Shown here piece by piece: positions 10,279 to 32,801 of a stretch of 32,801 nt of DNA (its first letter is position 1; each line of letters opens with the position of its first letter). A program made the position numbers and the translations under genes. Below the pieces are notes generated by a model. It saw only the letters and a program-made list of their open reading frames with translations, was not told the DNA's origin and did no database searches. Source of the DNA: an uncultured bacterium (GTDB lineage: Bacteria > Dictyoglomota > Dictyoglomia > Dictyoglomales > Dictyoglomaceae); the NCBI GenBank assembly GCA_938034905.1, contig CALHLF010000071.1, positions 1 to 32,801 of the forward strand. Direction: 5' to 3'.

Positions 10279-10539
10279 ATGAAAATTAAATTAATAAATG
10301 TTGGATTTGGGAATATAGTAGTAAGTTCAAGAATTGTAGCTATAATTAGTCCTGATTCTGCACCTATAAAGAGATTTTTAGCCGATGCCAGAGAAAAAAA
10401 TGAGGTCATCGATGCAACTTATGGAAGAAAGACAAGAGCAGTATTGGTATTGGATAGTGGACATATAATATTATCTGCTCTTCATCCTGAAACTATTGCA
10501 TCAAGAATTGAAGGAACAAATGAAAAGGAGGAAGAATGA
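10279..10539 (+). CDS. remA: RemA-like regulatory protein (DUF370)
   Basis: RemA is a small DNA-binding regulator, known in Bacillus subtilis for activating biofilm-matrix operons. The sequence here is nearly canonical: [50 protein letters not shown] and [13 protein letters not shown] chose the ATG at 10279 (86 residues) because GAGGAG at 10265-10270 is eight bases upstream; the in-frame GTG at 10270 overlaps that site. The stop overlaps gmk as ATGA. Whether it regulates a matrix in this organism cannot be said; the family is broadly conserved next to yicC and gmk in non-biofilm species. Confidence 0.95.
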
Positions 10540-11174
10540 AAAATTTAGGAAATCTTTTTGTTCTTTCAGGCCCATCAGGGGTAGGTAAGGATGCTATATT
10601 GGAAAGACTATTGAGAGGAGTTCCCAATTTGGTAAAATCAATCTCAGTAACAACTCGCCCTAGAAGAACAGGAGAAGAAGATGGAAAGGACTATTTCTTC
10701 GTAGATGAAGAGACTTTTAAAAAGATGATAGAAAGAAATGAGTTTTTAGAATGGGCAATAGTTCATTCTTATTTTTATGGGACTCCTAAAAACTTTGTAG
10801 AAAAAAATTTAAAAGAAGGAATTGATGTTCTTTTAAAAATTGATGTTCAAGGGGGATTAAGCATAAAGAAAATTATTAAAAATGCAATACTAATTTTTAT
10901 TATCCCTCCTTCCTTAGAAGAGCTTAAAAAAAGATTATTAAAAAGAGACTCAGAAGGAAAAGAAGATTTTAATATAAGATGGAAAAATGTTCCCCTTGAA
11001 ATTTCCAAAATTTTCTATTATGATTATTTAGTTGTGAATTCTGATATAGATTCTGCAGTGGAAGAAGTAAAAGCAATTATTTTTGCAGAAAGATGTAGAT
11101 TAACTAAGGAAAAAGCAGAATATTGGATAAATAAATTAGGAGGTAAAATAGATGAAGGAACCATCAATAGATAA
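10536..11174 (+). CDS. gmk: Guanylate kinase
   Basis: Guanylate kinase phosphorylates GMP to GDP with ATP in purine nucleotide metabolism. The P-loop [10 protein letters not shown] is at residues 11-20. The GMP-binding block [20 protein letters not shown] follows, with [15 protein letters not shown] and the lid region [19 protein letters not shown] after it. The 212-residue length is usual. It has an ATGA overlap with remA, and its last 23 bases overlap the start of rpoZ, so the three are translationally linked. Confidence 0.97.
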
Positions 11175-11349
11175 ATTATTAGAAAAGATCCCCAATAAAT
11201 ATATTTTAACTGTATTATCTGCAAAAAGAGCAAGACAAATTAATGAAGAACTTAAATTCTTAAGACAAGTAATGGCAAAAGATCCATTAACAATTGCTTT
11301 AGAAGAAATATTAAATAATAAAGTAAAATACGAGGAGGAAGAATTATAA
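11152..11349 (+). CDS. rpoZ: RNA polymerase omega subunit
   Basis: Omega assists assembly of the beta-prime subunit of RNA polymerase and can take part in ppGpp binding. The 65-residue protein has the short-omega pattern: [20 protein letters not shown], then AKRARQINEE, PLTIALEEILNNKVKY and an acidic tail. The ATG at 11152 lies within gmk, preceded by TAGGAGG (11138-11144). The position directly after gmk supports the call independently of the weak sequence constraint typical of omega. Confidence 0.93.
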   Translation: MKEPSIDKLLEKIPNKYILTVLSAKRARQINEELKFLRQVMAKDPLTIALEEILNNKVKYEEEEL

Positions 11350-11359
11350 GCTTTATAGA

Positions 11360-13477
11360 GTGTTAATATCGAAAATAATTCTTTTTGATACAAGGATCCC
11401 TGAAAAAGATTTTCTATATTACTCTATTCCTAAGGAATTTGAAAAAGAGATTTGTATAGGAAAAGGTGTTATTGTACCATTAAAAAAAAGGAAGGTTTTA
11501 GGATATATTTGGGATATTTTAGAAAATAATATTGAAGATTCCATTTCTCTTAAACCTATATATTCAATTTTAAAAGGAATTCCTCCTCTTCCAAAATCTT
11601 TAATTTCTCTTGTCAATTGGATTAGCAAGTATTATGAAAACTCCCTTTACGCATCAGCAAATTATATTTTTCCTTCAGGGGTTGACCTAAAAATAAGAAG
11701 AAAATTTAAAAGTAAGGATTATTCTAATATCAAACTTTCAAAAAAACAAAGAGCTCTTTTAGAACTCTTAAATCAAGAAAGATCTTTAGAAGAATTAAAG
11801 AGATATATAAAAGTTTCAGAAAATTATATAAATAAATTAGTGAAAATGAATTTAATAGAGGAAGAAGTAGAATTAGAAGTTATCGAAAAACATCCTAAGA
11901 AGAAGGAATTTTTTCAAGAACCAAAAACTAAAAATTGGAATATTAGGCAAGAAATTGTAAAAGAATGTGAAAAAATTAAAGAAAATCCTAACAAAATTCC
12001 CTATTTACTTTTAATAGAAAATAAAAGAGAAAGATGGGAATATTATTTAAAGTTAATAAGAGATTATTATAATAAAGGGAAACAAATATTAATAATATTT
12101 CCCACCTTAAACGCTCTACAAGATTTTCAAGTCTTCTTAGCAGAGAGAGCGCCCATAAAATTCTATATTTTTCATGGGTTTCTTACCCCTGCACAATCCT
12201 ATCAAGTTTTTAAGATTTCTGAAATAGAAAGTCCATTATTGGTAATTTCTACAGGAAAAGGAATTTTTCTCCCCTTTAATAATTTAGGAATAATCATATT
12301 GGAAGAAGAAGAAAATGAATTCTATAATTTTCGAGAAAGAGAACCCCGTTTTGATTTAGGAAGGATTTCTTTAAAGAGGGCAGAATTAGAAAATATACCT
12401 ATTTTTTTAGGAAGTAGCTCTCCATCTGTCTCTTCCTTTTATAATTTTTTAACAGGTAAGTTTTTGTTTTATAGAAAAACGGCAAAAAAAAGCAAAATTA
12501 CAATTTTAGACATGCGTAAAGAAAGAGAAGAAATTTTATCATATTATTCAATAACAAGAATTAAAGAAAATTTAAAATCTCAAAAACAAGTATTTTTTCT
12601 ATTAAATAGATTAGGCTATTCATCATATCTTCAATGTCAAGACTGTGGGTATACATTCTATTGTCCCAATTGTAGCACCTCTCTTGTTTACCATTCTGAG
12701 GAATTAGAGTTAAGATGCCACTATTGTGGGTATAAGATCTCTTCTGTAATCACCTGTCCTAATTGTGGAGGATATAGTTTTATCTATGGAGGATTGGGTA
12801 CAGAAAAATTAGAAACTTATATAAAAAGAATTTTTCCTAAATATTTAATCCAAAGATGGGATAGCGACTGGGAGATAAAGGAAGAAAGCCTATTATATAA
12901 AAGTCAAATGATAGTAGGAACTCGACTTATTGTCCCCTGGATATCAAGACTTAATGTAGGGTTATTAGTTATAGTCAATTTAGATAATTTCCTTCATCTT
13001 CCAGATTTCTCTGTTTCCGAAAAAACTTTTAACTTATTAAGAAGAATATTAAGTGATTTTCCAGGAGAGGAAATTATAATTCAAACCTATTCTCCCAATC
13101 ATTATCTATTAAGAGCACTGGAAAAAAATTCATATAATATTTTTCTTCACGAGGAATTAAACTTAAGAAAAGCTCTAAAATATCCTCCTTTTTCTATTCT
13201 TCATCAAATTTTATTGATTGGAGATGATGAAGGAGAAATTATTAATGCGGGAAAAATGATTAGAAAAGAACTGGAAGAAAAATTAAAAAATATCGAGATT
13301 TTAGGGCCTGCTCCCTATTTTCCGTATATTCTAAAAGGAAAATACAGATATCAAATTCTTATAAAAGTTTTAGATGAAAAAAACAATTCTATAAATCTTA
13401 GTGAATTGATTCAACTCGAGGATGTATTTTCTAATTATAGAGTTATAATAAATAAGGATATAAGAGAAATTTTGTAA
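11360..13477 (+). CDS. priA: Primosomal protein N' (PriA-like) with degenerate helicase motifs
   Basis: PriA restarts stalled replication forks. The 705-residue protein has the 3'-DNA-binding domain at the N-terminus (about 1-110), a winged-helix region (about 125-175), two helicase lobes and the eight-cysteine zinc module CQDCGYTFYCPNC ... CHYCGY ... CPNCGG, then a C-terminal domain. Unlike E. coli PriA, the Walker A loop expected as GVTGSGKTE reads LIENKRERWE near residue 218. The DEEH box reads about EEEN near 316, and the motif V region reads GTRLIVPW. ATP hydrolysis therefore looks lost while the fold and zinc module remain, as known for actinobacterial PriA. The start is a GTG at 11360, with the only AGGAGG 22 bases upstream, so initiation may depend on coupling to rpoZ. 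Confidence 0.9.
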   Translation: MLISKIILFDTRIPEKDFLYYSIPKEFEKEICIGKGVIVPLKKRKVLGYIWDILENNIEDSISLKPIYSILKGIPPLPKSLISLVNWISKYYENSLYASANYIFPSGVDLKIRRKFKSKDYSNIKLSKKQRALLELLNQERSLEELKRYIKVSENYINKLVKMNLIEEEVELEVIEKHPKKKEFFQEPKTKNWNIRQEIVKECEKIKENPNKIPYLLLIENKRERWEYYLKLIRDYYNKGKQILIIFPTLNALQDFQVFLAERAPIKFYIFHGFLTPAQSYQVFKISEIESPLLVISTGKGIFLPFNNLGIIILEEEENEFYNFREREPRFDLGRISLKRAELENIPIFLGSSSPSVSSFYNFLTGKFLFYRKTAKKSKITILDMRKEREEILSYYSITRIKENLKSQKQVFFLLNRLGYSSYLQCQDCGYTFYCPNCSTSLVYHSEELELRCHYCGYKISSVITCPNCGGYSFIYGGLGTEKLETYIKRIFPKYLIQRWDSDWEIKEESLLYKSQMIVGTRLIVPWISRLNVGLLVIVNLDNFLHLPDFSVSEKTFNLLRRILSDFPGEEIIIQTYSPNHYLLRALEKNSYNIFLHEELNLRKALKYPPFSILHQILLIGDDEGEIINAGKMIRKELEEKLKNIEILGPAPYFPYILKGKYRYQILIKVLDEKNNSINLSELIQLEDVFSNYRVIINKDIREIL

Positions 13478-13495: not shown

Positions 13496-13945
13496 ATGGT
13501 ACTTAAGATAATTACTATCGAAAATCCGATATTAAGAAAAAAGGCAAAAAAAATAGAGAAGATTGACGATGAAATTAGAAAATTAACACAAGATATGCTG
13601 GAAACAGTGAAAAACTCTAATGGAGTTGGGCTTGCTGCGCCTCAAGTAGGAAAAAGCATAAGATTAATTGTAGTAAGCTACGAGGGAAAAGATTATATTT
13701 TTATAAATCCTGAAATTATCAAGAAGGAAGGAGAAGATATTGATATAGAAGGATGTCTAAGTATTCCGGGAATTGAGGTTCCTGTAAGAAGGGCAGAAAA
13801 AATTCTATTAAGATATAATAATCTAAAAGGGAAAACATTGAGTATAGAAGTTAGTGGTATTTTAGCAAGAATTATTCAGCATGAAATTGATCATCTTGAT
13901 GGAATACTTATTGTTGATAAGATAGAGGAGGATATAAAAGTTTGA
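13496..13945 (+). CDS. def: Peptide deformylase
   Basis: Def removes the N-formyl group from nascent proteins. All three motifs are present: GVGLAAPQVG (residues 43-52), EGCLSIPG (85-92, metal ligand C87) and HEIDH (129-133, ligands H129 and H133, catalytic E130). The 149-residue length is typical of short bacterial deformylases. It lies between priA and fmt, 18 bases after priA, and its stop overlaps the fmt TTG start as TTGA. Def and Fmt act on opposite ends of the formyl cycle, so the coupling is functionally sensible. Confidence 0.97.
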   Translation: MVLKIITIENPILRKKAKKIEKIDDEIRKLTQDMLETVKNSNGVGLAAPQVGKSIRLIVVSYEGKDYIFINPEIIKKEGEDIDIEGCLSIPGIEVPVRRAEKILLRYNNLKGKTLSIEVSGILARIIQHEIDHLDGILIVDKIEEDIKV

Positions 13946-14874
13946 ATATTATATTCTTTGGAACACCAATTTTTGCAAGAATAATTTTAGAAAGGCTTTA
14001 TACCAAAGAAAAAATAATAGCTATATTTACACAACCTGATAAACCAAAGGGAAGAGGAAAGAAGATTGAATTCTCACCTGTCAAGCAATTCGCTTTAGAG
14101 AAAAATATTATTTTATTTCAACCAGAAAATTTAAAAAGCAGGGAAGTGGAAAATATCATTTTAGAATTAAAGCCAGATATTTTTGTTGTAGCATCTTATG
14201 GAAAAATCATTCCGGAGAATCTATTAAAAATACCTCCATATGGCGGAATAAATGTTCACGCATCTCTTCTTCCAAAGTATAGAGGTGCCGCTCCCATTGA
14301 GAGAGCATTGTGGAACTGCGAAGAAGAAACTGGAGTGTGCATCATGCAAATGGAAAAGGGACTAGATACAGGTCCCATATGGAGTGAAAGAAAAATTATA
14401 ATTGATCCTCATGACAATAGAGAAACTCTAACTTTAAAATTAGCAAATTTAGGCAGTGAGCTTCTTTTGGAAACTTTGCCCATAATTAAAGAAGGAAAAA
14501 TAAAACCTATACCTCAAGATGAATCCCTTGCAACTTATGCTCCTAAGATCTCTCCTTCCGAAGAGAAAATAGATTGGAATAACCCTATCAAAAATATATG
14601 GTGTCAAATTAGAGCTCTTTCTCCAGAACCTGGTGCCTACACCTATTTTAGGGAAGGCATATTAAAGATTTTAAAGGCGTATCCTTATTATGAAAGGATA
14701 GAAGATTTTCCCTTAGGGAGTATAATATTTATAGATAAAAAGAAGGGTTTTGCAGTAAAAGGAATTGATGGTATACTTTGGATTTTAGAAGTAAAGCCTG
14801 AGAATAAAAAAAAGATGCTTGCAACGGATTTTTTAAATGGATATCGTCTAAAGATAGGTGAAATACTAAAATAA
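13942..14874 (+). CDS. fmt: Methionyl-tRNA formyltransferase
   Basis: Fmt formylates initiator Met-tRNA using 10-formyltetrahydrofolate. Diagnostic segments are FFGTPIFA, the loop TQPDKPKGRGKK, the folate/catalytic block NVHASLLPKYRGAAPIERAL (catalytic Asn and His), and MEKGLDTGPI with the catalytic Asp. A C-terminal OB-like domain (about 205-305, starting ISPSEEKIDWN) binds tRNA. The 310-residue length is normal. The start is TTG at 13942 with GGAGG at 13927-13931 in def, overlapping the def stop by four bases. Confidence 0.97.
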   Translation: MNIIFFGTPIFARIILERLYTKEKIIAIFTQPDKPKGRGKKIEFSPVKQFALEKNIILFQPENLKSREVENIILELKPDIFVVASYGKIIPENLLKIPPYGGINVHASLLPKYRGAAPIERALWNCEEETGVCIMQMEKGLDTGPIWSERKIIIDPHDNRETLTLKLANLGSELLLETLPIIKEGKIKPIPQDESLATYAPKISPSEEKIDWNNPIKNIWCQIRALSPEPGAYTYFREGILKILKAYPYYERIEDFPLGSIIFIDKKKGFAVKGIDGILWILEVKPENKKKMLATDFLNGYRLKIGEILK

Positions 14875-23732: not shown

Positions 23733-24995
23733 TTAAAATTTAATCTCATTCTCCCAATCCACTAAAAATCCACAAATATCCTTATATTTTTCCTTCTTAT
23801 ATGCTATAGAGTGTTCCACTTTATTTTGTTCTAAAAAATCCAATATAAGGCCTGCATGAGCATTAAAATTTCTTGTAATATCTGAATGACCACCTTTTCC
23901 CTTAAGATCTCTATTTTCTCCCCTTTGAAAGGATTGTTGAAATTCCTTTAATTCCTTAGAAACAATTATATCCGTTCCATATTCTTTAAAGACTTCTTCA
24001 ATTATCTCCTCATTGAATCTTTGAAGAGTCTCTATTTTTACCCATTTTAGGTTGTTTTCTATTTTGATCTCATCTTTGTAATTAGAATATATTTCCCAAA
24101 AAGATTTTAAAAAGTAAATATAGATCCATAAATTGCCTAAAGGATAATTTAAAGAATATTTTCGCTCTATAGTATTTCCCTTATATTCTGTAAGCAGAGA
24201 ATTTAGGTTTTGTAGCCTTGTTATACTTAATTTTTCTTCTGCCTTTTTCAAAAGTTCTTCAATTTTATCCCAAGGTAATATAGTTAAAAAAGCTAAAATA
24301 AATCCCCTCTTCATAGTATAGATGCATGTATTTACTAACTTAAGAATTTCTTTTATAAAATTAAATTCGGAATAAAGTTCTTTTTCTGTTTCTTTAAAGT
24401 TAAAAGGAAGTTTATTATAATTTTTAAAATAATCAAAAAATAAAGGAGAGTCTATTTTTTCCAATCTTATTTCACTTATTATTCCTCCCTCTTCTAAGGG
24501 TGTGAGATATACATACTTAAATTCTGGGATATCTTCTTTATGCAAGAGATTTTGAGCTTTTAAAGAGACAATGAATCTTCTGTAAGCTTCTATAGCACTC
24601 AAAACTAAAAAATTTAGCCCTCTTGAGACATCTAATATGATCTCTTTATATTCTTCTTTATACGTTTCTTTTAGAGAAAGAAAGATAAAATCAGAGATTA
24701 TTTTGGGATCAGTAATAAATCTTTTTCCTTCATAACCTCCTGTTATTAAAATTTCATAAGATCTAATGTTTTCTTCTTCTATCCCAAGGTACATTAATCT
24801 TTTTTTTAATTCAATCTCTAAGATTCGATCCAAAGATTCAGGTCTAAGAAGCAAAATTTGGGGAGTAATGGAGTTTTTTAAAAAATATGAAGATAAAGCC
24901 TCAATAGTAGAATGTCCTATGTATTCAGAATTATCTATAATGTACTTAAACTCTTTACTATCTTTGGGAATAAAACCAATAACTAACTTAGACAT
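23733..24995 (-). CDS. csx1: Csx1-family CARF-HEPN ribonuclease (type III CRISPR effector)
   Basis: Csx1 proteins bind cyclic oligoadenylate made by Cas10 and then degrade RNA. The N-terminal CARF domain (about residues 1-170) has the strand-turn motif ILDVSRGLNFL at 120-130, corresponding to D-x-T-H-G-x-N of Csx1, and TGGYEGKRF near 85-93. The C-terminal HEPN domain carries the catalytic R-x4-H as RNFNAH (R375, H380). The 420-residue length fits. I prefer Csx1 to Csm6 because of the DVSRGLNFL motif. The ATG at 24995 overlaps the csm5 stop by eight bases, placing it in the csm operon. Confidence 0.85.
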   Translation of the reverse strand: MSKLVIGFIPKDSKEFKYIIDNSEYIGHSTIEALSSYFLKNSITPQILLLRPESLDRILEIELKKRLMYLGIEEENIRSYEILITGGYEGKRFITDPKIISDFIFLSLKETYKEEYKEIILDVSRGLNFLVLSAIEAYRRFIVSLKAQNLLHKEDIPEFKYVYLTPLEEGGIISEIRLEKIDSPLFFDYFKNYNKLPFNFKETEKELYSEFNFIKEILKLVNTCIYTMKRGFILAFLTILPWDKIEELLKKAEEKLSITRLQNLNSLLTEYKGNTIERKYSLNYPLGNLWIYIYFLKSFWEIYSNYKDEIKIENNLKWVKIETLQRFNEEIIEEVFKEYGTDIIVSKELKEFQQSFQRGENRDLKGKGGHSDITRNFNAHAGLILDFLEQNKVEHSIAYKKEKYKDICGFLVDWENEIKF

Positions 24996-26058
24996 TTCTT
25001 ACCAATCCACACCACCCTATAGGATAATATTTCACTCCTATTTTTACTGCCCAACGAGTTTGAGGATAAATTTTAGGATCTTTTACTTTGAGTTTTTGGG
25101 GAATAGGAATCTTATTCTCAGGAATAAAATAGCCTAAAGAGTTAAAATAATATGTCTTTCCAAATCCTATAGGAAGAAAGATTATATCTCTCTCTGCTGA
25201 TCTATTTTTTATTTCATTATAGTGATTAATAAAATCCTCAAATATTTCTTTTGCATCCTTATTATTTGAGAATTTTTGTCTTAATCTTTCCAATATTTTT
25301 ATCTCTTTATCTATAAGTTTTTGAGAATATTTTTTAAGATAGTTCCATATTTTTTCTTCTGGATTTTCTGCAAAAAAACTTTTCCAAAAATCTGGGCCAG
25401 AATAATTTTCATCTTTTCTTACAATTATTTCTATAGATATTTTTTTCTTATTAGGTATTGCAATAATAAGTTGTGAGAGTTTTCTGTGTGGAATTCTCTG
25501 GATTTCATAAACTTCTAACTCTTCAAAATCTATAGTGGTACTATCCCTTATAATTACATACTTCATTATATCTGTGTCTACTTTCTTAGCATCTTTTCTT
25601 AGAATATCTTCTCCTATATAAACTTTATCTTTTGGGTATATTTCTGGATCTATTTCTAATCCTTTAGTATTAAAGTGGTAGAAAAGTAATGCACTTCTTA
25701 TTGTTCCCTTTAAAGTACTTCCAGGAATATAGGCCTTTCCAAAAGAAGTTATAGGTAAGTAGACATTTCTTCTTCTATTAAGGTCTATATTTCCATTTAT
25801 CTTTAAAGAGTATTTATAGACTTCATTGATACGTATATTATTTTGGACTAAAAACTCCCTTATATTTCCACCCCTGATAATTATATTAGAAAGTTCCTTA
25901 AAAGCTTTAGGACCAGCTTTAGATTTTAGTAAATCCATTAACTTACTTTTATCTACAATATGTAAAGTTCCATTCTCTATTACACATTCTACAGCTGTAG
26001 AAATCTCCTCACCACTTCTTATTAAAGTAGGGGTTATTGTAGTAATAGTTAATTTCAT
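24988..26058 (-). CDS. csm5: Csm5, type III-A RAMP subunit
   Basis: Csm5 is a Cas7-like RAMP protein at the 3' end of the crRNA in the Csm complex. This 356-residue protein begins with a RAMP-type strand LTITTITPTLIRSG, has the glycine-rich loop AYIPGSTLKGTIRSALL (about 118-134) shared with Csm3, and ends GWCGLVRN, all expected of Csm5. The ATG at 26058 follows csm4 by 19 bases with GGGGGAT upstream. Assignment as Csm5 rests on order (after csm4, last RAMP) and on the IPGST-LKG motif. Confidence 0.9.
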   Translation of the reverse strand: MKLTITTITPTLIRSGEEISTAVECVIENGTLHIVDKSKLMDLLKSKAGPKAFKELSNIIIRGGNIREFLVQNNIRINEVYKYSLKINGNIDLNRRRNVYLPITSFGKAYIPGSTLKGTIRSALLFYHFNTKGLEIDPEIYPKDKVYIGEDILRKDAKKVDTDIMKYVIIRDSTTIDFEELEVYEIQRIPHRKLSQLIIAIPNKKKISIEIIVRKDENYSGPDFWKSFFAENPEEKIWNYLKKYSQKLIDKEIKILERLRQKFSNNKDAKEIFEDFINHYNEIKNRSAERDIIFLPIGFGKTYYFNSLGYFIPENKIPIPQKLKVKDPKIYPQTRWAVKIGVKYYPIGWCGLVRNV

Positions 26059-26077
26059 TTATATCCCCCTTTTCCCT

Positions 26078-27079
26078 TTAAAGGAATTTATAGCCTAAAT
26101 TTTTGCCATATGAAATTACTCTTAGGCTTTCTATAGGTGAAACATCAATATTTTCTCCTATATACGGAGATTTAACTAAGGCACCTTCTTTTACTTTGTA
26201 ATGGGTTTTTTTCTTAAAACCCATAGGTTGATTATAAAAAATGAAACCATCTCTTTTTATAATTTGATAGTAGATAAGATTATTTACTTCTTCTTTTTTA
26301 GGAGTGGTTAGAGATAATGTAATCTCAAAATTTCCTTCGTTGGGAATTTCTATATTGTCTTTCTCATAATAATCGAATATTCCTTTTCCTGTGCTTCTTT
26401 CCCCTCCTAATCCTTCTTCAATAAATAGATTTAGTGTAGGTATAAAAATTTTTTCTAATTCAGGAGCTTCTTCTTTGAGGAAATATAAAAAAGGCTTTAT
26501 TTCAATATTATTAGAGGTTTTTGTTTGCCATAAAAGTATATTTTCTTGGAAGAATAGACTTTGAGAATTGTTATTTTCACGATCTATGCTTACTTTAGGC
26601 TCTAATATAGTATCTACAAATTCAATCTCTTCATTTATTTCACTAAATTCTTCCTTTGATACTAAAAATTTATTGTTGAGAAATTTAAAATCTTCTAAAT
26701 TTTCTAAATTTATTAAGAGACTCTCTTTATCAAAGAACTCTAAAATTTTAGTAAGACCTCTTAAGGATATCCATTGAACTTTTTTGTACTTTTTATGTTG
26801 ATCGTGTTTCTCGGGAGGCAATTTGAGAAAAATATCTGGCATGGGTAGGAAGAGTATATCAAAATTAGTAAGTCTTAGACCTATAAAAATAGAGGAGATG
26901 ATAAGTTTTTTCTCAAAAAGATTAAACTCTTCCTCTCCAAAAAGTTTTATGAGTGAATTACTTAGAGCAGAAAATAGAGTATCAGAGTGGATTAGAGTAG
27001 AGGTTCTATCCATTCTACGAAGACCTATATGTAATAAGATAGGATCTTCTTTGAATAATTTGAAAACCTCAACTTTCAT
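26078..27079 (-). CDS. csm4: Csm4, type III-A Cas5-like RAMP subunit
   Basis: Csm4 caps the 5' handle of crRNA and contacts Cas10. The 333-residue protein shows the N-terminal RTSTLIHSDTLFSALSN motif (the HSDTLFSAL family mark at about 32-40). The late glycine-rich loop GLGGERSTGKGIFDYY (about 225-240) and PMGFKKKTHYKVKEGALVKS near the end are also family-like. Its ATG overlaps the csm3 stop by four bases (ATGA). Size is close to the usual Csm4 (about 300). Confidence 0.9.
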   Translation of the reverse strand: MKVEVFKLFKEDPILLHIGLRRMDRTSTLIHSDTLFSALSNSLIKLFGEEEFNLFEKKLIISSIFIGLRLTNFDILFLPMPDIFLKLPPEKHDQHKKYKKVQWISLRGLTKILEFFDKESLLINLENLEDFKFLNNKFLVSKEEFSEINEEIEFVDTILEPKVSIDRENNNSQSLFFQENILLWQTKTSNNIEIKPFLYFLKEEAPELEKIFIPTLNLFIEEGLGGERSTGKGIFDYYEKDNIEIPNEGNFEITLSLTTPKKEEVNNLIYYQIIKRDGFIFYNQPMGFKKKTHYKVKEGALVKSPYIGENIDVSPIESLRVISYGKNLGYKFL

Positions 27080-27840
27080 TTTATATTCACCTTTAAATTT
27101 TCTTCGATTTTTTTGATTAAACTCTTAATTTCTATATCCTCTAAAATTTTAGTTGTTTCTATTTTCTCCTTTTTATTGTCTTCTGAATACTTCTTAGAGT
27201 TTTTTACATAAAAAGATAAATTCTCAAATTTTATATGACCATATCCTCGAGTACCACTACCACCTAAATAATCATCTTCAAGCATTCTCATTCCCTCTAT
27301 TAAGGTTGTCACTAATTCTTCAATATTGTCATTCTCATAAAATGCTATACTAGTTGAAAATTTAAATTTGGCCCCTGCGGGAACTCTTTCCATAGTTCGA
27401 GGATGCTTTGCAGTTCCAGTTATTCGATCAATAATATTTTCTGTTTTTTCCTCGGTATACTCGATATTTTCTTCAAAATATTTGCTAAAATTATTATTAA
27501 AGTCTTCTTTATCTAAAAAGGAATCTCTAATAATCAATCTTGAGATAGTCTTATTATCAGTAGAATGAGAGCCAAAAAGAAGACATATATAACATTTACC
27601 GCATCTACAAGGTTCTCCTTTTTTTTCCTCTTCGTTCTTAGTACCGTGTTTCCTTTCTAATAAACATCTTATTTTTCCCTTCAAGGATGATCCTGGAATA
27701 TATGGAATTCCTTCTATTGTTTTAATAACAGGATTATCTAATCCTCCTATCTCAGCTGTTTCTTTAGATCCTCCGATATGTAATCCTGTCAATAATTTGA
27801 TTTCGCCCTCTATGAATAATTTTCCTATAAATATATTCAT
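27076..27840 (-). CDS. csm3: Csm3, target-RNA-cleaving backbone subunit
   Basis: Csm3 forms the helical backbone of the Csm complex and cleaves target RNA every six nucleotides. The N-terminal block LLTGLHIGGSKETAEIGGLD is followed by NPVIKTIEGIPYIPGSSLKG. D35 in GGLDNP matches the catalytic aspartate of Streptococcus Csm3 (D33), so RNA cleavage should be intact. The cysteines in CRCGKCYICLLFG (about 74-86) and the block ITGTAKHPRTMERVPAG are also typical. The 254-residue length is slightly above average. ATGA overlaps with csm2 and csm4 show coupling. Confidence 0.95.
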   Translation of the reverse strand: MNIFIGKLFIEGEIKLLTGLHIGGSKETAEIGGLDNPVIKTIEGIPYIPGSSLKGKIRCLLERKHGTKNEEEKKGEPCRCGKCYICLLFGSHSTDNKTISRLIIRDSFLDKEDFNNNFSKYFEENIEYTEEKTENIIDRITGTAKHPRTMERVPAGAKFKFSTSIAFYENDNIEELVTTLIEGMRMLEDDYLGGSGTRGYGHIKFENLSFYVKNSKKYSEDNKKEKIETTKILEDIEIKSLIKKIEENLKVNIK

Positions 27841-28301
27841 TTATCTCCCCTCCTCTTAGTTCCCTCATAGAATTTTTGATAGGCTACTAAGGCCTCAGCA
27901 AACTTTTTTATATTTTTTACATGTTTTTCTTCATTTTTCACTTCTTCTATAGAATCTTTAAGTACCACATATAGCTTACCTAAAGCATTCTTTTTTCCAA
28001 TGTTTTCTTCTTTTCCAACCATATAGGCTATGTAGGGAATTGTAAAGAGTAAATCAGAAGCATCTTTAGATTTTTTAATTAGATCATACACCTTTCTTAA
28101 ACTAGAAGAAGTTATATCTTTTGCTATCCTACTGACAAATTCTTGTATTTTGTAGTTAAAGTCTTTAAATTCTTCTATGTTCAGTTCTTGGAAACCTAAA
28201 GCTCTATTTACAAAATTTTCTCCTAATATCCTTTTGGCCTCAATTCGCCAAGTTTCTTCTTGGGAACCCTGATTTTGAGAAGGAAAATTTTTCTCTCTCA
28301 T
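27837..28301 (-). CDS. csm2: Csm2, small helical subunit
   Basis: Csm2 is the small helical subunit that lines the inner filament of the Csm complex. The 154-residue sequence is charged and alpha-helical. A Gln/Ser/Pro-poor, disordered N-terminus (about 1-15) precedes helices such as FKDFNYKIQEFVSRIAKDIT and LRKVYDLIKKS. The typical LFTIPYIAYMVGKEENIGK-like segment of Csm2 lies around 85-105. Sequence identity in this family is low, so the call rests mainly on order between cas10 and csm3 plus size. The ATG is three bases after the cas10 stop. Confidence 0.85.
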   Translation of the reverse strand: MREKNFPSQNQGSQEETWRIEAKRILGENFVNRALGFQELNIEEFKDFNYKIQEFVSRIAKDITSSSLRKVYDLIKKSKDASDLLFTIPYIAYMVGKEENIGKKNALGKLYVVLKDSIEEVKNEEKHVKNIKKFAEALVAYQKFYEGTKRRGDK

Positions 28302-28304
28302 TTT

Positions 28305-30698
28305 CTATCTTCCCCCTTCCAATTTTCTGGTTTTCATTTTAGCAATCTTAGTGGCTACAAGAATAAATCTAGGATTTCTAATCTTCTCACCCTCTCTCAA
28401 TAGATTAATCATAATTATATCGGCTAATTTTTCTGCAATTTCCCTTTGATCTCTTAAGTAGTACATAAATCTCCATACAGCAGGAGGGCTAATTTTTCTT
28501 TTTAAGCTTTGCTCTAAGAGAGGATTAAATCCCTTAATTGATCTTTCTATTTTTGAAATTATTGCGCGAGATACTGGTTTCTCTTTGTTAGTTCTTAATA
28601 TCTTCTTTGTTATTTCCTCTGCAAGGTTTAAAGCCTCTTCATATTCCCTATAACTTAAGATTTCTCCTTCTATACATATTTTGTTCTTTTTGGGTCTATC
28701 TTCCTTAGGGTATATAAAATTTTTTGCTTTTTCTAAGGCCTCTTCTAAAATGCGAGCTCCTCTAATTAAAGGAAAATTCTCAGGAAAATAATATATTCCT
28801 GCAGACATGGTAAAAATCCTCTGAGAGCCTGTATATTCGTAATATTTTTCTTTTATTTTTTGGGCTAAATCGTTAATCTCATCATAGGCACCAATTACAA
28901 AAAGATCATCTCCCCCTATGAATACGGGGTAAATACTACCCTTACTTTTTTCCTTTATTAATTTAAGTACTTCTTCTCCAAAGAAAAGTTCAATTCTTCT
29001 ACTTAATATTCCATATCTTGTTAAAGCTAAGCCCTTTCTTTCTTTTTCTATATTTGCTAATTTTCTAAAAATATTTCCCATATTGTCTGCATCCATTTTC
29101 AAATAGGCAAGTTTTTTATCTCCGTATCCCTCTGGAGAAATGTTCTTTTTGACAATTTCTTCAAAATTACCCTCGATAATATTAAAACTTCCAAGCAAGA
29201 ATCCATCAGGTATAAAATTATCTTTTAATGAAATATTTTCTAATTGGTATATTTTATTATATTGGTCTTGAGCAGAGATATTATCTACAAAATTAATAGC
29301 ATATCCTAATTTTTCTAAGAATTCACTCCAGGTTTCTGGGATTTCTAAGGAGGTGTTTTTCTTTCTCTCCACTAAGAAGGAAGAAGTTTTTAATTTATCT
29401 GTTAATTCTACAAAGGAACGACAAGTTTTACACCATCTATCTTGTTGACTTGCGTCTTCTACTTTTTTCTTTCCACAAATTGTACAAGATTCCCCTTCTC
29501 CTATATTTTCTTTGCAAGGTATAAATATTAACTCATATATATTACTTAATACTTTATATTTCTGCTTTTTTCCTCTATTAAGTTTTTCTATGACTTCTTC
29601 TCTTTTGTCGATAAAATTAAATAGATCATTTATAGATAAAAAACTCCACTCTATTCCTAGATATAATTCCTCTCCTATGAATTTCCATATATTTTCTGCG
29701 ATATATTCTCTTATCTTCTTCAATTTTTCCTCGGGTATATACGAAAGTAAAAGCTCAAAGTTTCCTCCTCCTAAATAAATAGTATTTACTCTTGTAAATC
29801 CAGTAGTATCAAGTATATATTTTGCAGAATATCGTGATAGAAGATCTAAGAATACTGATTTACCTTTGAGCATTCTTCCAGCCTTTTCTGAAGAGACATT
29901 GAATAGAAAATTCTGTATTCCAGAGAGATCTCCAAGTATAAGAGTAAAAAGCTTTTTGTTGAAGATTTCTTCTTGAATTTCTCTCTGATCTTCTCTTTTT
30001 CTCAAAATATCTTTAATTTTATTAAGGTCATTTTTAAGCAACAATTGATTCTCATAACTTCTATATAAGGCATGAGCTAAGGCTGCTGTGATTCGTGAAT
30101 GATCATATATGGATATATCTGGCTCATATCCTATTGTTTGTGCAGGAACTTGAGAAAAATAAAATTCGAATAAAGTTAGTAATTGATCTATATTATTAAT
30201 TTTAGGGAATAATCTTAAGAAAGATTCTATTAATTTAGAGTAATCATTTTCATCTATTTTAATATTTTCCGGTGTGGGAAAGATATTTTCTAAAGTATAT
30301 AAGGGATAATTAAGTTCTTTTGCCTCTTCATCTATTCTCTTAAAGGGAGCTTTTAGGGGAATATTGAGATAATAGCCTGTTTGCTCTCGAGATTCTTCTC
30401 TTTCAGAAGAGGCTAACCAATCCGCAATTTGTATTATATCTCCATACTCATCTTTAGGTTCGTGGTGATAGAGAGTTAGATCTATTACTTCTTCTGTTAA
30501 ATTTTCTTTTAAAAAATTGGATAACTTAGATTTTTCTTTAGTCAAAACTTCTAGGAAATGGGCAGAAAACTTGGGATGAGCATACTCAACTTTATTAAAC
30601 TTTTCAGGAAGATCTCTAGAACTGTATTTTTTTGTTCTTTCTAGGACTTTTCCTAAATCATGTAAAAGGGCAGAGATTAAAATTTTAATATCATCCAA
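28305..30698 (-). CDS. cas10: Cas10/Csm1, type III-A large subunit
   Basis: Cas10 cleaves single-stranded DNA and makes cyclic oligoadenylate on target RNA binding. The N-terminal HD nuclease motif is LLHDLGKV (H13, D14), with downstream YHHEP near 78-82. The first Palm (about 255-390) includes GDLSGIQNF. The zinc module is C405/C408/C423/C426. The second Palm has MDADNMG and the cyclase site GGDD at 595-598 (complement 28905-28916). Both DNase and cyclase activities appear intact. At 797 residues the length is standard. The start is a TTG at 30698 with GGAGGGG six bases upstream; an ATG at 30694 is out of frame. Confidence 0.97.
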   Translation of the reverse strand: MDDIKILISALLHDLGKVLERTKKYSSRDLPEKFNKVEYAHPKFSAHFLEVLTKEKSKLSNFLKENLTEEVIDLTLYHHEPKDEYGDIIQIADWLASSEREESREQTGYYLNIPLKAPFKRIDEEAKELNYPLYTLENIFPTPENIKIDENDYSKLIESFLRLFPKINNIDQLLTLFEFYFSQVPAQTIGYEPDISIYDHSRITAALAHALYRSYENQLLLKNDLNKIKDILRKREDQREIQEEIFNKKLFTLILGDLSGIQNFLFNVSSEKAGRMLKGKSVFLDLLSRYSAKYILDTTGFTRVNTIYLGGGNFELLLSYIPEEKLKKIREYIAENIWKFIGEELYLGIEWSFLSINDLFNFIDKREEVIEKLNRGKKQKYKVLSNIYELIFIPCKENIGEGESCTICGKKKVEDASQQDRWCKTCRSFVELTDKLKTSSFLVERKKNTSLEIPETWSEFLEKLGYAINFVDNISAQDQYNKIYQLENISLKDNFIPDGFLLGSFNIIEGNFEEIVKKNISPEGYGDKKLAYLKMDADNMGNIFRKLANIEKERKGLALTRYGILSRRIELFFGEEVLKLIKEKSKGSIYPVFIGGDDLFVIGAYDEINDLAQKIKEKYYEYTGSQRIFTMSAGIYYFPENFPLIRGARILEEALEKAKNFIYPKEDRPKKNKICIEGEILSYREYEEALNLAEEITKKILRTNKEKPVSRAIISKIERSIKGFNPLLEQSLKRKISPPAVWRFMYYLRDQREIAEKLADIIMINLLREGEKIRNPRFILVATKIAKMKTRKLEGGR

Positions 30699-30701
30699 TT
30701 T

Positions 30702-31010
30702 TTACCCCTCCTTATCAAGATAAATATCTAATATATCCCCAGGTTTAAGCTCTGGTATGTGAGATTCTATGATAACTGCTCCTAATCGTGGATCATAAAT
30801 TGCTAAGAATGGAGTTGAATGGTAAAAATGAATAAGGAAACCATATAACCATATTGGACCTCTACCATTTAGTACTACTCCCTTCCTTGTATTTATCTTA
30901 GGTGGGTAAATTCTTTTTAGTATAGAAGGAGTTAGATTTTCGTTAATGTAGAAGGATAATATAATATATTTTTCTTTTTCTTCTATTTCAAAAGAAATGA
31001 CATCTTTCAT
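30702..31010 (-). CDS. csx3: Csx3 (Crn3-type) probable cyclic-oligoadenylate ring nuclease
   Basis: This 102-residue protein matches Csx3, a CARF-like type III accessory protein described as a cA4 ring nuclease (Crn3). The hallmark segments are PPKINTRKGVVLNGRGPIWL (about 36-55), LIHFYHSTPFLAIYDPRLGA and ESHIPELKPGD. The conserved residues visible are H61, H64, D73, R75 and H84. It sits first in the operon, three bases before the cas10 TTG, so the off-switch would be made with the Cas10 signal generator and the Csx1 effector. No ribosome-binding site is seen before its ATG. A tentative promoter TTGAAA-17-TAGTTT ends at about the start codon, suggesting a leaderless message. Confidence 0.88.
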   Translation of the reverse strand: MKDVISFEIEEKEKYIILSFYINENLTPSILKRIYPPKINTRKGVVLNGRGPIWLYGFLIHFYHSTPFLAIYDPRLGAVIIESHIPELKPGDILDIYLDKEG

Positions 31011-31914: not shown

Positions 31915-31944
31915 ACTTCAATCCTTTATAGGCACCCTACAAAC
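31915..31944 (-). CRISPR. Isolated degenerate CRISPR repeat at the trailer end
   Basis: A 30-base copy differs from the array consensus at five positions, including both first bases and the inner GGTACG (here GGCACC). It retains the TTATAGG and CTACAAAC segments. It lies 239 bases away from the next repeat. Decay at the leader-distal end is expected, and the repeat orientation puts that end here. Confidence 0.8.
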
Positions 31945-32183: not shown

Positions 32184-32801
32184 GTTTTAATCCCTTATAG
32201 GTACACTACAAACAGGCACAACCCCTATGCCAACCATTTACTTCACCAAGTTTCAATCCCTTATAGGTACGCTACAAACTGTTTACTTCTTTTACCCTAT
32301 AGTTATGTTCTGAGAAGTTTCAATCCCTTATAGGTACGCTACAAACTCAAGGTGTGCAAGTATCTGCAGACGCCTATAGAACGTTTCAATCCCTTATAGG
32401 TACGCTACAAACACTAATTTTTGCAACACCTGCACTAAAATTCCTCTCCTGGTTTCAATCCCTTATAGGTACGCTACAAACATTATTCCTATTCTTTCAT
32501 CTAACTTTTTTACAACAGTTTCAATCCCTTATAGGTACGCTACAAACTCCGGACGGGTTCCGGGTGCGGAGTGGCGCAAGCCAGTTTCAATCCCTTATAG
32601 GTACGCTACAAACAAAAATTTCGATGATGTAATTGAATTTTTAAATGAGCGTTTCAATCCCTTATAGGTACGCTACAAACAGGGTACAAATTGTCGTGCC
32701 TTTCGTGCAGGACGCATCGTTTCAATCCCTTATAGGTACGCTACAAACTTTAAAATCCCAACCGCCCATGGGATATACATCCCAGTTTCAATCCCTTATA
32801 G
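32184..32801 (-). CRISPR. CRISPR array, continues past the right edge
   Basis: Ten 30-base repeats are visible, starting at 32184, 32250, 32317, 32383, 32452, 32518, 32584, 32651, 32719 and 32785, the last cut at 17 bases by the edge. The first (32184) differs at two positions; the next eight are identical, beginning GTTTCAATCCC and ending GCTACAAAC on the plus strand. The nine spacers are 36-39 bases (36, 37, 36, 39, 36, 36, 37, 38, 36). Read on the minus strand the repeat ends in ATTGAAAC, the usual eight-base crRNA 5' handle, so transcription runs right to left and the leader lies beyond 32801. The array points towards the csm operon. Plus-strand ORFs here are repeat translations. Confidence 0.98.

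Follow-up and report, generated by a model that had tools for sequence, protein, structure and literature searches.

PriA is often termed a helicase; Escherichia coli can live without the PriA motor, yet the motor is conserved. In Deinococcus radiodurans, PriA neither hydrolyses ATP nor unwinds forks, while binding single-stranded DNA, forks and DnaB, and it has been named a pseudohelicase (Lopper et al., 2015; PMC4504706). Arginine stands in place of the catalytic lysine across Deinococcus-Thermus PriA proteins, and the corresponding E. coli substitution, K230R, abolishes ATPase and helicase activity according to earlier work cited in the same study, where ATPase-deficient PriA is also described as still assembling primosomes (PMC4504706). 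In a reconstituted in vitro assay, E. coli PriA K230A supports DnaB loading (PMC10175261), and actinobacterial PriA was described in 2005 as smaller and very divergent (PMC1193525). No paper containing both 'PriA' and 'Dictyoglomus' was found among openly searchable texts.

The gene considered here, from a heat-loving relative of Dictyoglomus, lies within the window, which is the whole stretch of 32,801 nucleotides that was analysed (Table 1). Its product scored 305.6 bits against TIGR00595, the NCBIfam PriA model, exceeding the curated cut-off of 230.35, and its sequence matches in the PDB were PriA chains (E about 1e-52). The Pfam cut-offs were passed for PF17764 (3'BD), PF18319 (Cys-rich region) and PF18074 (C-terminal domain), and no helicase domain (DEAD, ResIII or Helicase_C) was matched in the same scan. 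The eight cysteines lie at residues 426, 429, 435, 438, 453, 456, 466 and 469, while Y662-R663-Y664-Q665 in the C-terminal domain resembles the W-R-W-Q of E. coli. Named by inspection, the neighbourhood consists of yicC, a RemA-like gene, gmk, rpoZ, priA, def and fmt, and gmk-rpoZ-priA-def-fmt is a usual order, common among bacteria. In the 1.84-Mb window genome, which is 99.6% complete, neither a protein search nor a TIGR00595 search returned a second PriA, the better secondary matches to the model being Mfd, RecG, UvrB and a Cas3.

Table 1. Features of the priA locus, with the single-stranded DNA-binding protein (SSB) gene of the same genome. Positions refer to the window unless a contig is given.
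Feature	Position	Strand	Description and basis
gmk	10536..11174	+	Guanylate kinase, 5' neighbour; named by inspection
rpoZ	11152..11349	+	65 aa, in the gmk-priA interval; named by inspection; standard gene order
priA	11360..13477	+	ORF, 705 aa, GTG start; PriA ortholog lacking ATPase motifs (predicted pseudohelicase)
3'-DNA-binding domain	11360..11674	+	Residues 1-105; PF17764 8.2e-17 over residues 15-104
Winged-helix-like segment	11735..11887	+	Residues 126-176; AF2 helices 128-136, 143-150 and 154-162, then a strand; place matches PriA
Degenerate Walker A / motif I	12011..12040	+	LIENKRERWE, residues 218-227; ungapped alignment with E. coli, AF2 helix from residue 222
Degenerate motif II	12302..12316	+	EEEEN replaces DEEHD; EEEE at residues 315-318, then N319
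Altered motif III	12407..12427	+	LGSSSPS replaces LGSATPS (GSATP to GSSSP); alignment
Cys-rich region	12635..12766	+	Eight zinc cysteines, C426-C469, all retained; PF18319 4.9e-10, columns checked
Motif V	12917..12940	+	GTRLIVPW, residues 520-527 (GTQMLAKG in E. coli); GT kept, QxxxKG lost
Motif VI region	13043..13060	+	RILSDF replaces QVAGRAGR; arginines gone, two columns deleted
C-terminal domain	13175..13474	+	Residues 606-705; PF18074 2.2e-10, alignment
def	13496..13945	+	Peptide deformylase, 3' neighbour; named by inspection
fmt	13942..14874	+	Methionyl-tRNA formyltransferase; named by inspection
SSB gene	L222, G000:C20:11529-11831		SSB of the window genome

The window protein and E. coli PriA align without an indel across motif I (GVTGSGKTEVYL -> IENKRERWEYYL, that is G229E, K230R and T231W), the G229-K230-T231 columns of E. 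coli corresponding to E224-R225-W226 and the catalytic lysine to arginine. IENKRERW thus stands where an active SF2 3'-5' PriA helicase carries the Walker A pattern GxxxxGK[ST], the QxxGRxGR of motif VI is likewise missing, and no [AG]xxxxGK[ST], GK[ST] or QxxGRxGR was found anywhere in the protein. The AF2 model, built from 37 sequences (pLDDT 84.5, pTM 0.83), starts a helix at residue 222, within what is the phosphate loop of active PriA. All of the top nine PDB structure matches of this model were PriA; the E. coli PriA-PriB complex on a fork (8fak) superposed best (TMq 0.79, rmsd 4.9), and the model retains the general PriA fold. Judged from these motifs, the assignment of the window protein as a motorless PriA, whose residues for ATP binding and hydrolysis are gone, is well supported. 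The sequence-only reading had placed LIENKRERWE at the Walker A position and GTRLIVPW at motif V, and had described the eight zinc cysteines and the overall layout as kept, all of which agrees with the alignment and the Pfam matches; it was also right that the DEEH box is lost, and its letters there ('about EEEN') were one residue off. It had named a second canonical priA in the genome, or an intact P-loop elsewhere in the protein, as findings that would speak against it; both were searched for and neither was found.

The genome of the window belongs to a family of seven genomes in two genera, with priA found in six of them, the window genome included; the seventh genome, 72% complete, gave no PriA match. 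One member (G004) encodes a xylanase which, across 198 residues, differs visibly at a single position from PDB 1f5j, the XynB of D. thermophilum. From this match we infer that G004 is Dictyoglomus thermophilum and that the family is therefore Dictyoglomaceae, the window coming from a second genus of it. The other five PriA proteins are 50-78% identical to that of the window, and the same motif losses recur in all six, with R-W at the K-T position each time. Because all six share the loss and 92 PriA proteins from outside the family have an intact motif I, the loss in the window protein is not a chance event. Whole-gene dN/dS was 0.115 for the window against L064 and 0.096 for L066 against L067, with 0.06-0.09 across the former helicase lobes in the same pairs (HL1 0.084 and 0.060), all rough figures given that dS is near or above 1. 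Constraint is strong across all domains; priA is under purifying selection, and dN/dS near 0.1 excludes decay.

Compared with the published description, D. radiodurans PriA resembles that of the window in its degraded Walker A and Walker B, in the exchange of the GKT lysine for arginine (here R225, with equivalents in 6/6 family proteins), and in its retained DNA-binding parts (PMC4504706). It differs in belonging to another phylum and in that its absence of ATPase and unwinding activity and its binding of DnaB were measured, whereas the window protein is known from its sequence. Two actinobacterial PriA proteins of the PRK14873 family (L175, L176) also lack Walker A (ALPGEQWC and ALPGPEWS) and retain the eight cysteines; unlike the window protein, they have no arginine at the lysine position and have diverged far more from canonical PriA. 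Against the PRK14873 models, the window protein reached at best 97.5 bits, compared with a cut-off of 812. Canonical PriA (E. coli and K. pneumoniae; PDB 6dgd, 4nl4 and 8fak) shares with it the domain order, the fold, the eight cysteines and the status of single-copy restart protein, whereas the window protein lacks Walker A, DEEH and QxxGRxGR and has an SSB partner without the PF tip. The motorless PriA of Dictyoglomaceae is well supported as the same kind of protein as the Deinococcus case, so that motor loss outside Actinobacteria was already known, if rarely noticed. The earlier reading correctly stated that actinobacterial PriA has lost helicase motifs, the two actinobacterial-type copies lacking Walker A, and correctly took the gene order to be non-actinobacterial, as is the organism; the question it raised of whether relatives share the loss is answered by all six family genes found. 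The novelty it implied for such a loss outside Actinobacteria does not hold, given the Deinococcus-Thermus precedent (PMC4504706) and the survey below. Its suggestion of fork restart without unwinding is a reasonable reading, in which DnaB loading without unwinding is still presumed.

A survey with TIGR00595 of 389 genomes from 271 families is the more interesting result than the single case of Dictyoglomaceae. The PriA proteins that were read comprised most of those with E-values worse than 1e-150 and many better-scoring ones, and Walker A was clearly absent in at least 29 of the 271 sampled families, or 33 when four weak matches are counted. None of the better-scoring proteins that were read lacked Walker A, and as these were a part of the better-scoring set, the family count is a lower bound. 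In a separate draw of 60 genomes, in which every PriA outside Dictyoglomaceae was read, 5/49 were clearly without Walker A (six including a weak one). Each of the eight cysteines is retained in 39-40 of 41 motorless PriA proteins from outside Dictyoglomaceae, and the DNA-contact positions R427 of motif IV, T539 of motif V and T303 of motif Ib in 32, 38 and 37, respectively; R587 of motif VI persists in 3/41. K230 is replaced by arginine in 28/41 of these proteins and in 6/6 from Dictyoglomaceae, a figure that is soft outside the ungapped cases, as aligners prefer to pair K over R. An exception to the near-fixed eight cysteines is seen in L170 (G193, a 0.6-Mb genome) and L126, for each of which one alignment gave a count of four in this region. 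Walker A is intact in L069 (G044, GPPRTGKT) and L140 (G060, GPPRSGKT), from families f39 and f55. Like the window protein, these two lack motif VI and have partly lost motifs II, III and V; they differ from it in the intact Walker A, and may represent a half-way state of motor loss.

The balance of these observations leans towards a convergent process in which PriA repeatedly became a motorless fork clamp, its P-loop turning into a helix and its lysine mostly into arginine, with the zinc cysteines and several DNA-contact positions held fixed. If so, the common job of PriA would be to mark forks and recruit the loader, with unwinding an optional extra. Annotations as 'primosomal protein N'' or 'helicase PriA' are probably wrong on activity in about one in ten of the sampled families. 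The motorless lineages serve as natural experiments on the purpose of the motor, and the family list enables a comparison of which forks, accessory helicases and loaders accompany its loss.

The number of origins was examined by parsimony on trees, which are limited by long branches and odd composition. With the motif columns included, three changes were obtained, suggesting few origins, and most losses cluster; with these columns removed, six changes were obtained (bootstrap 4-7), and no bootstrap tree gave a single change. A single origin of all motorless PriA proteins was rejected (p-AU 0.021), and more than one origin of motor loss is favoured. A narrower proposal, that Dictyoglomaceae and Actinobacteria owe their losses to one shared ancient event or transfer, draws on the clustering obtained with the motif columns left in and on a tree holding Dictyoglomaceae together with two actinobacterial-type proteins, which was not rejected (p-AU 0.117). 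It is nonetheless unlikely: the free tree joins Dictyoglomaceae to family f14 rather than to the actinobacterial types, one origin for all losses is rejected, and the window protein scores low against the actinobacterial models, as given above.

As to partners, DciA was found in every Dictyoglomaceae genome except the one that is 72% complete (six of seven), and in the window genome its gene lies, by inspection, near a gyrB. Joint action of DciA and PriA has been proposed (PMC9825169). Across a sample of 80 genomes, DciA occurred in 31/36 with motorless and 35/44 with intact PriA (p 0.56), and DciA as a factor permitting motor loss was rejected for want of association. Searches for DnaC/DnaI in the seven family genomes matched DnaA, apart from one DnaI-like gene in G001; a family-wide loader of this type was rejected, with the gene in 1/7 genomes. 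That gene (L204 / L218, G001:C1:325247-326146) encodes a helicase-loader homolog of 300 aa, which scores 127.6 bits against PRK08939, below the cut-off. The sole SSB detected in each of the seven genomes (L221-L227) lacks the canonical acidic C-terminal tip ending in PF; instead, it has a Glu-rich tail that carries a conserved EEEIL-x-E-I/L-L core and finishes with EEEKDE or similar, and the contact with SSB must therefore differ.

The window protein most probably acts as a passive clamp on forks and brings in DnaB, its SF2 motor lost and its fork-recognition frame kept under purifying selection. It would bind abandoned forks by their structure, with the lagging-strand single-stranded DNA threaded through the pore which the Cys-rich region helps to form in E. 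coli PriA, and would recruit DnaB, probably with DciA, the lagging arm not being unwound by PriA itself. A duplex lagging arm might be cleared by another helicase, RecG being present in the window genome, or DnaB might be loaded on existing single-stranded DNA. Counting against this clamp model, R304 and S305 of motif Ib are lost in Dictyoglomaceae and mostly kept in other motorless PriA proteins, the sole SSB detected has no acidic PF tip, and the presence of DciA fails to separate genomes with motorless PriA from those with intact PriA.

That the protein has instead left replication restart, having been repurposed as a DNA-binding or scaffold protein with a PriA fold, would fit an alteration that takes in the whole motor rather than one residue, changes in motifs Ib and II that extend past the ATP contacts, and the lack of a PF tip on the only SSB detected. 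This appears improbable for the sole PriA of its genome, encoded in a standard operon, with 3'BD, Cys-rich region and C-terminal domain all retained and strong constraint in every domain, the more so as D. radiodurans PriA retains fork and DnaB binding. It is more doubtful still, to the point of being very improbable, that ATP is bound or hydrolysed through a rewired site. An acidic cluster (EEEE, DEEE or DQEE) does persist at motif II, and arginine can in principle contact phosphate; against this, the whole protein carries no P-loop signature, the AF2 model puts a helix in the loop, the motif VI arginines and the motif V K-G are gone, and K230R alone abolishes the E. coli ATPase (earlier work cited in PMC4504706). 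A pseudogene, frameshift or assembly artefact found no support, the window genome being divided into 80 contigs, and is refuted by conservation, the reading frame of some 700 aa being unbroken in six independent family genomes, two of them single-contig, and by dN/dS near 0.1.

Beyond the clamp model, the same window carries a type III-A CRISPR locus at 23733-31010 on the minus strand and at 32184-32801. Its genes encode Cas10/Csm1, Csm2, Csm3, Csm4, Csm5 and a Csx1-like CARF protein, and upstream of cas10 lies the gene for a Csx3 ring nuclease. The array, with a repeat of about 30 bp (GTTTCAATCCCTTATAGGTACGCTACAAAC), runs off the end of the window, and a degenerate copy of the repeat lies at 31915.
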